From a candidate division KSB1 bacterium (lineage in GTDB: Bacteria; Zhuqueibacterota; Zhuqueibacteria; Residuimicrobiales; Krinioviventaceae): a DNA stretch of 64,000 bases. Positions 59,750 to 64,000 of this stretch are shown here, in pieces (the stretch's first letter is position 1; each line of letters starts with the position of its first letter). The stretch lies in the NCBI GenBank assembly GCA_034521575.1, contig JAXHMJ010000005.1:2356001-2420000 (forward strand), read 5' to 3'. A program made the position numbers and the translations under genes. The notes beneath the pieces were generated by a model that did no database searches, had not been told where the DNA came from, and saw only the letters and a program-made list of their open reading frames with translations.

Positions 59750-61456
59750 ATGAAACCTTTAAATTTGTCTGTAACTATAATACTTTTTTTGGGTATTATT
59801 TCGTATGGGTCTGGTCAACACCATGAATTTGATCCGGAACAATATTGTCGGAAACATCGTAAAGCCATCCAGCTCATTGTTGATGGCGAAATTGAAGAGG
59901 CAATTGAGTTGGCCGACTCATTTGTTGATGAGAATTCAAAAGATATTGAAGCTGTTTATGTAATGGCCGTTGCCCATGCCCAAAAAGGTGAGATAAAAAA
60001 AGCCATGGATTATGTCGAAAAGTCACTGGAACTGGGCATTCCCTTTTCACGATATTTAGCCGGCCCAAGGGATTTGCTCAGGCCACTCATTAACAGCAAG
60101 CCCTTCCGGCAACGTGTGAAAGACAATGGTTTCTATCTGCTTCATGGTCCCATGCTGAGTAACGTAACAGACTCCCGGGCTGAGTTTTGGGTGCGGACAT
60201 TCAGGGAATATCCCGTCTCTGTTTTGGTAAAGGAACCGGGTACAGAAAAGATCATACGATCCGAAACAGTGAAAACGGATGCTTCCCGGGATTACACGGC
60301 AATCATTCCGGTTACAGGGTTGAAAGCAAACACGGAATATCGATACCTCATTATTGTCGGGGGCAAAGAATTTGGAAACAAAGCCACGGATAAACGATGG
60401 GTTTTCCGAACCTATCCGCCAACAGGAGAGCCTGGCCAAGTAGCGGTTGGATTCGGTGGAGGCGCCGGATATACCCCGTTTTACAACCACATGTGGAATA
60501 CGCTTTCGGCAAACTGGCTGCCGGCATTCCTTTTCCTGGGCGATAACGTGTATATTGATCATCCCAAATATCCCCAGGTGCAGGATTATTGCTATTACAG
60601 GAGACAATCCTCTGAGGAGTATAAAGAATTTGTTTCAAGAACCTCTATTTATGCCATATGGGATGATCATGATTTTGGCGAGAATGATTCCTGGGGTACC
60701 CCCTCTAAAGACCAGCCCGAATGGAAGATTCCGGTGTGGAAGAAATACAAGGACAACTGGAACAATCCCTATTACGGAGGAGGAGAAGAAATCCCCGGTG
60801 TCTGGACCGATTTTTCCATCGGAGATGTCGATTTTTTTATGCTTGACGGCAGGTACTACCGGTCTTCTCCGACATTGGAGCATCCGGATATGTTAGGTGG
60901 AGCTCAGAAAGAATGGCTGTTTGAGAAGCTCAAACAATCCGGGGCAACCTTTAAAGTTATAGCCTCTCCCGTACCCTGGTCTTTTGGTGTAAAAGGCGGA
61001 ACTCAAACTGTTTACGGACCTTCGGGCACAGTGAAACCCAATGATTCGGAATCCAGTCAGTTTCCTCCGTATGAAGCAACTCAAGTACCCCGGACATCTG
61101 ATACCTGGGAAGGTTATGCCGAAGAACGGGAAAAAATATTTTCCTTCATCGAAGAAAATAACATTGAAGGGGTGGTGTTGATTTCCGCAGATCGCCACCG
61201 CTCCGATGCATGGAAGATTACCCGGGAAGATGGATACGATTTTTATGAGTTTGAAAGCTCAAAGCTGACCAATGTGCATACACATCCTGTTTTTCCAGAA
61301 TCCATCTTTGGGTACAATGAAAACTGTTCTTTCGGGCTTTTGGAATTCAATACTGAAAAACGAGACCCCGAAGTGACCTATAAGATCATAAGCATCGACA
61401 ATGAGGTGATGAATCAGATCACATTAAGACGTTCCCAACTGGAATTTAATCGGTAG
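59750..61456 (+). CDS. Secreted PhoD-like phosphoesterase with an N-terminal TPR-like region
   Basis: The 568-residue protein has a signal peptide (residues 1-22), then a helical TPR-like segment (about residues 30-115, IEEAIELADSFVDENSKDIEAVYVMAVAHAQKG type), a fibronectin-like domain (about 120-225) and the PhoD metallophosphatase: LFLGDNVYIDH, AIWDDHDFGEND, MLDGRYYR and ISADRHRSDAW. PhoD enzymes release phosphate from diesters or teichoic-acid-like polymers. It lacks a T9SS tail. No Pho box was found. The TPR-like start is not usual for PhoD. Confidence 0.88.
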   Translation: MKPLNLSVTIILFLGIISYGSGQHHEFDPEQYCRKHRKAIQLIVDGEIEEAIELADSFVDENSKDIEAVYVMAVAHAQKGEIKKAMDYVEKSLELGIPFSRYLAGPRDLLRPLINSKPFRQRVKDNGFYLLHGPMLSNVTDSRAEFWVRTFREYPVSVLVKEPGTEKIIRSETVKTDASRDYTAIIPVTGLKANTEYRYLIIVGGKEFGNKATDKRWVFRTYPPTGEPGQVAVGFGGGAGYTPFYNHMWNTLSANWLPAFLFLGDNVYIDHPKYPQVQDYCYYRRQSSEEYKEFVSRTSIYAIWDDHDFGENDSWGTPSKDQPEWKIPVWKKYKDNWNNPYYGGGEEIPGVWTDFSIGDVDFFMLDGRYYRSSPTLEHPDMLGGAQKEWLFEKLKQSGATFKVIASPVPWSFGVKGGTQTVYGPSGTVKPNDSESSQFPPYEATQVPRTSDTWEGYAEEREKIFSFIEENNIEGVVLISADRHRSDAWKITREDGYDFYEFESSKLTNVHTHPVFPESIFGYNENCSFGLLEFNTEKRDPEVTYKIISIDNEVMNQITLRRSQLEFNR

Positions 61457-61500
61457 TTTTTGTTATTGATTGATGTTTAAAACCAGGGTTTTGTTGGAAA

Positions 61501-61735
61501 TCAACCCTTGTTGGCGAAAATCCGCTTGCCGCTGTCCGGCAAATGCACTTGAACCGAATCTGTTTTTCGTGCTGCATGCATCCCTGCATCGATGATGCGG
61601 GCATAAAGGGGATCGCCTGGGATATGGCAGGACTGTCAAGGATCAGGGTGGTCAGATACCCGGCCATACCTTCATTGACGAGTTCCCGGACCAGGGTCAG
61701 CGGCTCGTCCGGACGGCGCTGAAAATGCAAATGAC
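61501..61735 (-). pseudogene. Remnant of an unidentified gene (5' end missing, frameshifted)
   Basis: On the minus strand one frame reads HFQRRPDEPLTLVREL, then NEGMAGYLTTLILDSPAIS. Near 61615-61625 the coding-like text moves to another frame: GDPLYARIIDAGMHAARK, then TDSVQVHLPDSGKRIFANKG and TGA at 61503-61501. Both pieces look like real protein and join with one base change. Stops lie just upstream of the first piece, so the gene's start is gone. I cannot name the family. GC is higher than in the surrounding AT-rich DNA. Confidence 0.4.
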
Positions 61736-62037
61736 GCTATGGCTAATCCGGACTGTGCAAGTTATTTAATTTTATACATTATTTTTTCACAGTTCGTTCA
61801 GAGCAGCAAAGCCAGAGATCAGCTAAATTTAATGGCGTTTGACCTGTGGAACAACCATCGGGTCTATGTTTTGCATTGACGTTTTCAGGTGGAGCTTGAA
61901 TGATGGGATTGATTTTTTCTGATACTGGAAAATTTAAAGAGCTCTGAATTTTTCTGATAATAGAAAATATTTTCCGATAGTCGAAAAAAACTTGTGTTCC
62001 AATAAATATATTAAATTTAGCAAAGAAAAGGGGTTAG
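61736..62037. other. AT-rich gene-free region
   Basis: No supported gene or structured repeat. Two TTTTTCTGATA-type stretches and a third TTTTCCGATAG stretch (61915-61985) are similar to each other, each followed by GAAAA, which may be a short tandem motif. Base composition begins to shift toward that of the AT-rich right end. Confidence 0.4.
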
Positions 62038-62136
62038 TTTTTTATTAAAACTGAAGAGGAGAAATGGAAATGTAAGAATTGTGGTTCGGGTTTGAGTGTA
62101 CATAGAGATAATTGTTTAAATTGTGATTACAAATAG
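62038..62136 (+). pseudogene. C-terminal zinc-ribbon fragment, DUF3795-like
   Basis: The frame opens after a TAG at 62035 and has no ATG. Its 32 codons read FFIKTEEEKWKCKNCGSGLS, then VHRDNCLNCDYK and TAG. 'EEKWKCxxCG....H...C..C' is the zinc-ribbon tail of the DUF3795 family, whose main domain is missing. It ends 12 bases before the first inverted-repeat site, so it may be the last piece of a lost neighbour cassette. Confidence 0.45.
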
Positions 62137-62147
62137 AGATAAAAAAC

Positions 62148-62281
62148 GCACGGTAACAAATGGTATAGTGCATGCGGATTTCAGCGGTTTGCGAAGGTAT
62201 GGTGCTCGTAAAAAAAGCCGGGGTAAACTGCCAGGTTTTCGCTTTGTAATCCCGCACGACACATATTGCCAACCGTTATGT
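62148..62281 (+). repeat. Long imperfect inverted repeat, attC-like site A
   Basis: A left arm (62150-62180, ACGGTAACAAATGG then TATAGTGCATGCGGATT) is roughly complementary to a right arm (62249-62278, AATCCCGCACGACACAT then ATTGCCAACCGTTA). About 65 bases of partly self-complementary sequence lie between. The right arm ends with CCGCA...CCAACCGTTATG, which recurs in site B. It lies 30 bases upstream of the hydrolase gene. The layout (long imperfect hairpin with conserved outer boxes, between unrelated genes) is that of an integron attC recombination site, but the outer boxes fit the classic GTTRRRY consensus only in part. Confidence 0.5.
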
Positions 62282-62310
62282 CACATTAAATAGACGAATT
62301 GCAGATAATT

Positions 62311-63339
62311 ATGGATATGAAAAAAATATTTAAAATTGCAGGAAAGCTTTTATTAGGATTTTTGATTCTATTGATTTTGTTGTCACTAACATTGTTTTTG
62401 ATAACTAGAGGTGATTATTCTGTGCCCTATACCGTTGAAAAGGATACTACAATTCCGCATATCGAAATAGACAATGTTATTTTCCATGCTGAAACATTTG
62501 GAAATGATACCAATAAAACAGTGATAGTAATTCACGGAGGTCCCGGGAACGATTACAGATATCTTCTTCCGCTAAAAGAATTGTCAAAAAAATACTTTGT
62601 AGTTTTTTATGATCAGCGAGGAACCGGTTTATCTCCAAGAGTAGATGCCGGTGAACACTCTTTAGATAATTCATTGAAAGACTTGGGCAATATCATTAAT
62701 TATTACGCGCCCAATGATAAAGTCAATATTATTGGGCATTCGTGGGGAGCCATGCTTGCCACAGGCTATATAGCTCAATACCCTGAGCGGGTCAGCAAGG
62801 CCATCATTGCCGAACCCGGCATGCTAACCAGCGAAAAAGGAAAAGAATACATGCAAAAGTTCAAGATTGACTTTGGTTGGAATGTTTTAAAATCAATGAC
62901 ATTAATTGTCTTTGAAAGTCTTCACCTGAAAAACACCGACAAGCAAAGTCGTATAGATTATATTTTTGGCAAAATAGGCACTTTGGATGTTAAAGGCAAC
63001 CCTATGCGAAAGTATTTTTGTAATAAAGATATAACCAACGGTTATTTACCATTTTGGAGGTTAAGTGGTGTTGCGTCGCAATCAATAATAAAGAAAGCAA
63101 TGGATGAGAACGGAAACATACAAATAGATTTGGTGTCCGGATTAGAAAATTACACAAATAAAGTATTGTTTATCGTTGGAGAATGCAACCAAATTATTGG
63201 TGAAGAGTTTCAGCAAGGACACATAAAATACTTTCCTAATGCTAAAATGATAGTTGTAAAAGATGCGGGCCATACGATGTTTGGAGAAAAACCCGAGGAA
63301 TGCATTGAGATAATAGAAAAATATTTTGATACAGAATAA
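62311..63339 (+). CDS. Membrane-anchored alpha/beta hydrolase, proline-iminopeptidase-like
   Basis: The 342-residue protein has an N-terminal membrane helix (LLLGFLILLILLSLTLFLI) and an alpha/beta hydrolase fold: VIVIHGGPGNDYRY as the oxyanion loop, YDQRGTGLSP, the nucleophile elbow GHSWGAM (Ser), and DAGHTMFGEKPEE with the catalytic His near the end. HGGPG and DQRG are marks of the proline iminopeptidase group. The Asp is probably in the segment after VLFIVGE, where a Cys-Asn pair stands at the usual place, so activity is not certain. It is low in GC and codon use differs from the rest of the window. It is flanked by two attC-like sites, so it is probably a captured gene. Confidence 0.82.
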   Translation: MDMKKIFKIAGKLLLGFLILLILLSLTLFLITRGDYSVPYTVEKDTTIPHIEIDNVIFHAETFGNDTNKTVIVIHGGPGNDYRYLLPLKELSKKYFVVFYDQRGTGLSPRVDAGEHSLDNSLKDLGNIINYYAPNDKVNIIGHSWGAMLATGYIAQYPERVSKAIIAEPGMLTSEKGKEYMQKFKIDFGWNVLKSMTLIVFESLHLKNTDKQSRIDYIFGKIGTLDVKGNPMRKYFCNKDITNGYLPFWRLSGVASQSIIKKAMDENGNIQIDLVSGLENYTNKVLFIVGECNQIIGEEFQQGHIKYFPNAKMIVVKDAGHTMFGEKPEECIEIIEKYFDTE

Positions 63340-63472
63340 CGTGGCGTAACACGCGGTCATACACAATGCGGGAGAATATAGTAATTTGAACAAGTGCACA
63401 AAAAGCATAACAACGGTTTGATAGGGGATCGCCCTGAAGCCCGCATTGCGCATCATACCATCAACCGTTGTG
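63340..63472 (+). repeat. Long imperfect inverted repeat, attC-like site B
   Basis: It starts directly at the hydrolase stop. Left arm 63346-63372 (GTAACACGCGGTCATAC then ACAATGCGGG) is complementary with gaps to right arm 63438-63472 (AGCCCGCATTGCGCATC then ATACCATCAACCGTTGTG). The right-arm end, CCGCA...ATACCATCAACCGTTGTG, matches that of site A (CCGCA...CATATTGCCAACCGTTATG). Two such sites, one at each end of a gene in the same orientation, are what a gene cassette needs. Confidence 0.5.
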
Positions 63473-63502
63473 AAAAACCAACCAAATTTGGGAGCAAACT
63501 AT

Positions 63503-64000
63503 ATGAAAAAATTTCAAACCAAACCATTGCTTTATTATGTTATTATTACTTATTGCATAACATGGCTATGTTGGATTACTGCCATTTTAATGGGTTATGA
63601 AGAAATATCATTTTTCAAATTGTTTTCCTGGGACTTTAATAATTCGAAACAAATGATACTTTTTTTTATTTTTAGAATAGGTGTTTACGGACCGTTATTA
63701 GCTTCAGTGTTGGTAACTTTTTGGAGATTTAAACGTGATGGATTGAAAAATCTTTGGAGGCGGATAATAAAATGGAACGTCCCTATAAAGTGGTATTTAT
63801 ATCTATTGCTTATTCCCATTGGTATAAATTTATTTGCTGTGTTGGCAGGCGTTTTAACGGGCTTGTCATTTGATGATTTTTTTCAAAGTGAAATTCCCTG
63901 GTCATTAATTTTGATATACTTTTCTTACCAAATAATTACCAGTGGAATGGAAGAACCCGGCTGGAGAGGGTTTGCACTTGGTCATTTACAAAATAAATAT
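63503..64000 (+). CDS. CPBP-family intramembrane metalloprotease, N-terminal part (runs off the window end)
   Basis: The frame is open to the last base and gives 166 residues. There are four hydrophobic segments (LLYYVIITYCITWLCWITAIL, MILFFIFRIGVYGPLLASVLV, WYLYLLLIPIGINLFAVLAGV, LILIYFSYQIITSGM) and the start of the CPBP (Abi/CAAX) active site, EEPGWRGFALGHLQ, with the paired Glu and the Arg. These proteases cut membrane proteins or process prenylated or peptide substrates and are often linked to self-immunity. GGGAG is 9 bases before the ATG. AT-rich, and it follows attC-like site B by 30 bases, as the second cassette gene. Confidence 0.8.
   Translation, partial: MKKFQTKPLLYYVIITYCITWLCWITAILMGYEEISFFKLFSWDFNNSKQMILFFIFRIGVYGPLLASVLVTFWRFKRDGLKNLWRRIIKWNVPIKWYLYLLLIPIGINLFAVLAGVLTGLSFDDFFQSEIPWSLILIYFSYQIITSGMEEPGWRGFALGHLQNKY

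Follow-up and report, generated by a model that had tools for sequence, protein, structure and literature searches.

Gene cassettes at the end of the window

The window analysed here, a stretch of 64,000 nucleotides, covers C5:2356001-2420000 in a bacterial genome of 5.26 Mb in five contigs. Two genes of the plus strand lie at its end: a single ORF for an alpha/beta hydrolase with an N-terminal membrane segment (62317..63339; Pfam Abhydrolase_1, 5.7e-21), and the 5' part of a gene for a CPBP family (Rce1-like) membrane protease (63503..64000; Pfam PF02517, 6.8e-10), whose complete ORF, likewise single, is L013:1503-2375. An initial annotation of this DNA had proposed that two attC-like sites surround the hydrolase and that both genes are bounded by such sites on one strand, and had suggested a covariance-model search as a check. 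That search bore out both proposals. The model used, R2, was built from 20 sites elsewhere in the genome, with the three sites of the window cluster held out. It recovered site A (62145..62284, plus strand; E=2.1e-15), with the AAC of R'' at 62155-62157 and the crossover GTT at 62275-62277, and site B (63338..63476, plus strand; E=3.7e-10), with the AAC at 63348-63350 and the GTT at 63467-63469; the next-best match in the window had an E-value of 0.26. A third attC (L013:2364-2506, equal to C5:2420364-2420506; E=3.7e-7) lies 0.4 kb beyond the window edge, where the CPBP gene ends. From crossover to crossover, cassette 1, with the hydrolase, occupies 62276..63467, and cassette 2, with the CPBP protease, starts at 63468 and continues beyond position 64000, the window edge, as far as the third attC, both on the plus strand.

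Site A is preceded by what remains of a truncated DUF3795-like cassette gene, the zinc-ribbon tail at its 3' end (about 62047..62136, plus strand), which had been compared to a cut neighbouring cassette. In agreement with that view, its DNA is 79% identical to the 3' end of a complete DUF3795-like ORF in an array on contig C4 (L016:9609-10037, minus strand), which has its own attC directly downstream; the DUF3795 assignment is a weak Pfam match, slightly below the curated cut-off. Since the homology ends abruptly near 62047, the cassette of the zinc-ribbon tail is, by this comparison, one that has lost its upstream part, together with the attI or preceding site.

No integrase was found in the window, as had been stated, the nearest recombinase fragment lying about 74 kb away (C5:2343968), and a pattern scan for the attI motif described below found no copy in the window and none before site A. 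With three sites at C5:2418-2420.5k, and hence at least two attC with no integrase nearby, the cluster corresponds to a CALIN, the category to which the initial annotation had likened it.

Upstream of the cassettes, at 61897-61989, there are at least three palindromes, TTTTCYGATANTNGAAAA, which resemble a repeat cluster on contig C3 (L014:8950-9042, C3:692963) located just 3' of a canonical intI and a small ORF. An apparent pseudogene remnant was seen on the minus strand at 61460-61730, between a phosphatase-like gene and the cassette cluster.

Structure and covariation of the attC sites

Sites were first gathered by eye and with a simple arm-matching script, and 15 aligned sites were used to build a covariance model, R1. 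About 25 strong matches to R1 were found in the genome, mostly in arrays (C1:272-292k, C4:88-94k, C5:325-332k and the window), with some singletons, for example at C5:18.9k, 429.8k and 2179k. Sites A and B share the attC layout of an AAC-bearing left arm, a second arm pair, a variable middle and a right arm of the form ..AACCGTTRTG, and site A is 81% identical to the attC at C5:331.8k. The R' box departs from the classic GTTRRRY, as had been remarked for the window: most copies are GTTRTGN or GTTGGCN and so do not fit it, the GTTR being kept while the remainder tracks the cassette's own R''.

Across 20 sites, 89% of the cells of the proposed stem are paired, against at most 37% in slid controls. 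The covariation score of the same 20 sites was 0.59, against 0.16 when shuffled and at most 0.13 when slid, a comparison that favours the unslid arrangement as the structure was read from one sequence. Plain folding of sites A and B alone was indistinguishable from that of shuffles (z about -0.1 to -1.4), and the case for these two sites therefore rests on class membership and covariation. The bottom strand was the more stable one on folding in 18 of 22 sites. A search of Rfam across 61400-64000 gave no match at E<=1. One attC of only 68 nt (L018:7232-7299, C5:329231-329298), which lies among sites of about 140 nt, had on its bottom strand a stronger fold z-score than any other site.

Complementarity of cassette ends

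The right half of an integron site belongs to the next cassette, so that the start of a cassette should complement the R'' at its own far end and not the preceding R''. For 17 intervals of this genome, 106 of the 153 bases at positions 4-12 were complementary to the interval's own downstream site, compared with 55.7 on average and 85 at most over 20,000 trials in which the partners were permuted. Matches to the own end averaged 6.2 of 9 positions, against 3.1 of 9 within a site. One of the 17 intervals is split by a second attI, which makes the test conservative. The same test gave 68/99 in Tangfeifania diversioriginum (Bacteroidota), where permutation gave 34 on average and 61 at most, and was passed by seven of seven intervals on viral contig L132, with 6-7 of 8 positions each.

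Within the window, the start of cassette 1, GTTATGTCAC, is complementary to the R'' of site B, GTGGCGTAAC, at six of nine variable positions, and to the R'' of site A itself at three of nine. The ends of cassette 2 match weakly (4/9), for which reason this cassette looks decayed or end-exchanged. Taken with the weak folding of sites A and B, the poor complementarity of cassette 2 suggests that the site copies in the window may be decayed.

The 47 cassettes used for a position profile came from this genome, from Tangfeifania and from three viral contigs. Complementarity of own ends was present in 89-100% of cassettes at positions 1-9, in 66% at position 10 and in 55-79% at positions 12-15. At position 11 complementarity was found in none of the 47, the usual pairing being A opposite C or G. 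This mismatch is conserved while its neighbours covary, which makes it a candidate for a recognition feature; canonical integrons have, for this role, extrahelical bases that I2 contacts (PMC4792948).

One interval on contig C1, from L019:16769 to L048:5060 (C1:284.8-292.1k), is 7.3 kb long and has complementary ends, GTTGTATGC and GCATACAAC. It may be either a very large cassette or one in which an inner site has been lost.

attI sequences at the starts of arrays

The attI search used only the reverse complement of the first R'' of each array, which was sought upstream. In four arrays it led to the same attI-like sequence of about 70 nt, which runs up to the start of the cassette: ACAATTGTnnTTATA..GTATAARARCAATnnnATAYACWnACGTT. 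An exact search with this pattern gave four matches in the genome, and its reversed control gave none. The C1 array contains a fifth, slightly diverged attI (L019:14280), and the attI sequence also occurs upstream of attC in two relatives. A loose version of the motif was positive in 17 of 33 loci, against a background of 19 in 660 random windows; as it worked in only these 17, attI was defined by cassette-end complementarity and not by a universal motif.

The C1 array (L019, C1:271-285k) has two attI, at L019:3834 and 14280. Between these lie an IS-like gene and a reverse-transcriptase-like fragment, an arrangement that looks like the joining of two platforms.

A recombinase without I2 adjoins attI

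Remnants of a tyrosine recombinase were found upstream of attI, on the same strand, at four of the five attI in this genome. The C4 remnant is 72% identical to residues 1-233 of P0001, an intact relative from genome G036, and is interrupted by TGA; the remnant at C5:2344k is 85% identical over the last 61 residues, and those at both C1 attI copies are degenerate, with 43-46% identity. No remnant was seen at the C5:333k attI, and no intact cognate integrase without I2 was found in this genome. P0001 itself has 280 aa, and its stop lies about 80 nt before an attI.

P0001 scored 206.8 bits against the canonical IntI model TIGR02249, under the cut-off of 265, with an alignment broken at the place of I2, and 240 bits against the XerA model NF040815, over the cut-off of 220. 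The distance from the catalytic hairpin to HxLRH is diagnostic, at 49-54 residues in the I2-less recombinases (n=34), 43-50 in those of viral contigs (n=80) and 51-53 in archaeal XerA, compared with 90-92 in canonical IntI (n=19) and 92 in 2A3V. The six catalytic residues of tyrosine recombinases, R134, K159, H223, R226, H249 and Y258, were invariant among 21 sequences. In an unrooted tree, all 20 canonical IntI formed one clade (100/100) that excluded the I2-less recombinases, which had no resolved clade of their own. Structure prediction from an alignment of viral-contig recombinases (pLDDT 87.7) gave a Xer fold with no helix inserted at the place of I2. The nearest solved folds were those of XerA, 4A8E and 5HXY; a different placement of the two domains kept the TM-scores of the PDB matches modest (0.4-0.6).

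Distribution in other genomes

The initial annotation had proposed a search for further copies of the site and for an IntI or other tyrosine recombinase, and both kinds of element were found. Besides the copies in this genome, the attC class is present in 7 of 39 relatives and in Bacteroidota. The genome has two intact canonical IntI genes (C3:691616 and C1:497519) and several decayed recombinases.

Relatives of P0001 (E<=1e-60) occur in about a quarter of the Bacteroidota genomes sampled (105/396). At 30 recombinase loci, taken with flanks of 1.5 kb, R1 matches lay downstream on the same strand in 19 and on the other strand in one. The best complement to the nearest R'' fell 40-119 nt past the recombinase stop in 19 of 21 loci, about four being expected from position only (P about 8e-13). 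In Tangfeifania (L204/L205) the recombinase, attI, at least eight attC and the genes are all on one strand, and an intact recombinase with attI and attC is present in genome G087 (L210). If the I2-less recombinase is accepted as an integrase, both would carry a complete putative integron, with integrase, attI and attC array. Chryseobacterium and Persicobacter plasmids also carry the system.

No R2 site was found at E<0.01 at 22 canonical IntI loci or at the two intact IntI of this genome, the models R1 and R2 having been trained on this attC class, so that sites of canonical IntI may be missed. Around the latter two genes (L014:7578-8561 on C3 and L015:9487-10956 on C1) this class was not detected within about 9 kb, and they are either In0-like or served by another attC class. 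An ORF of 123 aa lies 3' of the C3 canonical intI (L014:8567-8938). It has no Pfam match and may share, in a weak local alignment, a W..K..WY.P pattern with an N-terminal extension fused to the I2-less recombinase of Tangfeifania (L204:14660-14950).

Viral contigs

A divergent version of the system is present in IMG/VR viral contigs. Eighty loci from these contigs (L124-L203) with the same type of recombinase gave 236 R1 matches, and in every case match and recombinase were on opposite strands. These loci had been intended as an attC-negative control; with 236 matches found they were dropped from that use, and the canonical IntI loci were taken instead. The cassette start matched the nearest R'' at 6 or more of 8 positions in 32 of the 34 IMG/VR loci tested, and most of these starts sit at the 5' end of the recombinase, after TATATATAATA. 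On L132, the contig through whose gene content the phage nature of the IMG/VR contigs was looked at, eight sites alternate with eight single ORFs (L132:1378-6795). The L132 cassette genes are inverted relative to usual cassettes, running against the attC orientation, and all read with the recombinase.

Discussion

We read the end of the window as a CALIN of two complete cassettes and the tail of a third, with attC sites of a class that is linked elsewhere to attI and to a XerA-like recombinase without I2; on the sequence evidence we put the probability of this at about 85%. The initial annotation had raised an unusual attC class or a different recombinase as options, and the XerA-like, I2-less recombinase adjoining attI lends support to that suggestion. 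As delimited by the covariance models, the attC class spans this phylum, Bacteroidota and viral contigs. The wider class of integrons appears to use an integrase without I2, whose activity we infer. On a broader scale, we consider it reasonably likely that widespread I2-less XerA-like integrases run integrons in Bacteroidota, related phyla and phages, that they use another strand mark, such as the position-11 mismatch, and that they reflect either an I2-free ancestor of canonical integrons or an independent origin of cassette capture.

By analogy with known integrons, the I2-less recombinase would join a folded single-stranded attC, probably the bottom strand, to attI at G^TT, and the excised circle would reunite its own R' and R'' halves. 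In an enzyme without I2, some other asymmetry would have to set strand choice and directionality. A candidate is the R arm, in which 9-10 paired bp are followed by an obligate mismatch at position 11 and by about 4 bp that pair again; the enzyme may read this mismatch in place of the extrahelical bases. The copies in the window are probably remnants left after rearrangement. The genome yielded no intact copy of a cognate integrase, so that the array in the window, unless moved in trans by a canonical IntI, is probably frozen.

Such action in trans could also account for the whole class, if the sites were attC of the ordinary kind, mobilised by a canonical IntI with I2, and the XerA-like gene were a bystander or an accessory factor. 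The two intact canonical IntI of this genome and the one of Tangfeifania would allow for this, and many attC, including one of a Polaribacter phage, are known substrates of IntI1 (PMC9892861). We nevertheless regard it as unlikely: the present attC class was near neither this genome's canonical IntI nor the 22 others, four of the seven relatives with the class have no canonical IntI match at 1e-60, and attI directly follows the I2-less gene in 19 of 21 loci and lies beside its remnants at four of the five attI here. The Xer-like character of the linked recombinase brings to mind pdif modules, in which dif-like flanking sites are moved by the host XerCD. We give this very little credence, since the sites are about 100-140 nt long, with two covarying arms and a variable loop, as opposed to the 28 bp of dif sites, and a dedicated linked recombinase and attI are present.

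Dispersed non-coding repeats (REP, MITE or bidirectional terminators) that flank genes by chance would give long imperfect intergenic hairpins, and some of the copies, at C5:18.9k, 429.8k and 2179k, are indeed singletons. A repeat family does not predict, however, that the sequence after one copy complements the 5' edge of the next copy and not that of its own, or that a conserved attI stands beside a recombinase at the array starts, and near-identical copies without cassette-end complementarity, the mark of REP or MITE elements, were not what was found; this explanation is extremely improbable. Equally hard to credit is an ordinary operon of hydrolase and CPBP genes, with the hairpins as structural elements of its mRNA. 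The two genes do share a strand and are closely spaced. Conservation of the hydrolase-CPBP pair as an operon, which the initial annotation had named as counter-evidence to its proposal, was not seen: of 81 other genomes in the phylum, only 4 have hydrolase homologues (33-37% identity), with neither CPBP nor attC adjacent. Moreover, Rfam gave no match, and the same sites border unrelated genes elsewhere.

The title of Messier and Roy 2001, as cited in PMC2426708, presents the I2 'additional domain' as a necessity for integron integrases. The domain is also used as a criterion for naming a gene intI (PMC2426708, PMC8352920) and is credited with enabling Xer-like enzymes to act on single-stranded attC (PMC7790495). 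Integron surveys in which I2 is a requirement pass over the present class; close relatives of its recombinase occur in 105 of 396 Bacteroidota genomes, with adjacent attC in most of those tested. IntegronFinder 2.0 found complete integrons to be very rare in Bacteroidetes, where only In0 had been known and one new complete integron, in Salinibacter, was reported (PMC9024848). If functional, I2-less attC platforms would be a natural test case for the chicken-egg paradox stated in PMC4792948, and their phage-linked versions bear on the speculation of Escudero et al. on a viral origin. The open-access literature yielded no account in which attC arrays are tied to an integrase without I2; other journals or preprints may contain one.

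Several known systems share features with the one described here. Like CALINs and chromosomal integron arrays, these arrays have the order R''-L''-loop-L'-R', an AAC...GTT core, single-gene cassettes on one strand, cassette ends that are mutually complementary and a bottom strand that is more stable (18/22 sites). They differ in that R' is mostly GTTRTGN and not GTTRRRY, and in that complementarity extends over about 9-10 bp, with a mismatch at position 11 (47/47) and about 4 bp more. Archaeal XerA is a chromosome-dimer resolvase without cassettes. The linked recombinase is like XerA in passing the family cut-off of NF040815 and in its nearest solved folds, and differs in that its gene abuts attI and attC arrays. 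The NCBIfam name of NF040815, 'site-specific tyrosine recombinase/integron integrase', already includes 'integron integrase'. Inverted-orientation integrons, which have a canonical IntI of a particular sub-clade (PMC8352920), also carry recombinase, attI and cassettes on one strand, whereas the recombinase here is without I2 and falls outside the canonical IntI clade. 'Integron-like' simple tyrosine recombinases have been treated in PMC8138268; in the available part of that source the insertion is called essential for integron function and no cassette arrays are tied to insertion-less members, whereas such arrays are linked to them here. Finally, clusters of attC have been described in phages, including a Polaribacter (Bacteroidota) phage (PMC9892861); in contrast to those phage CALINs, the arrays on the IMG/VR contigs are adjoined by an I2-less recombinase and attI.
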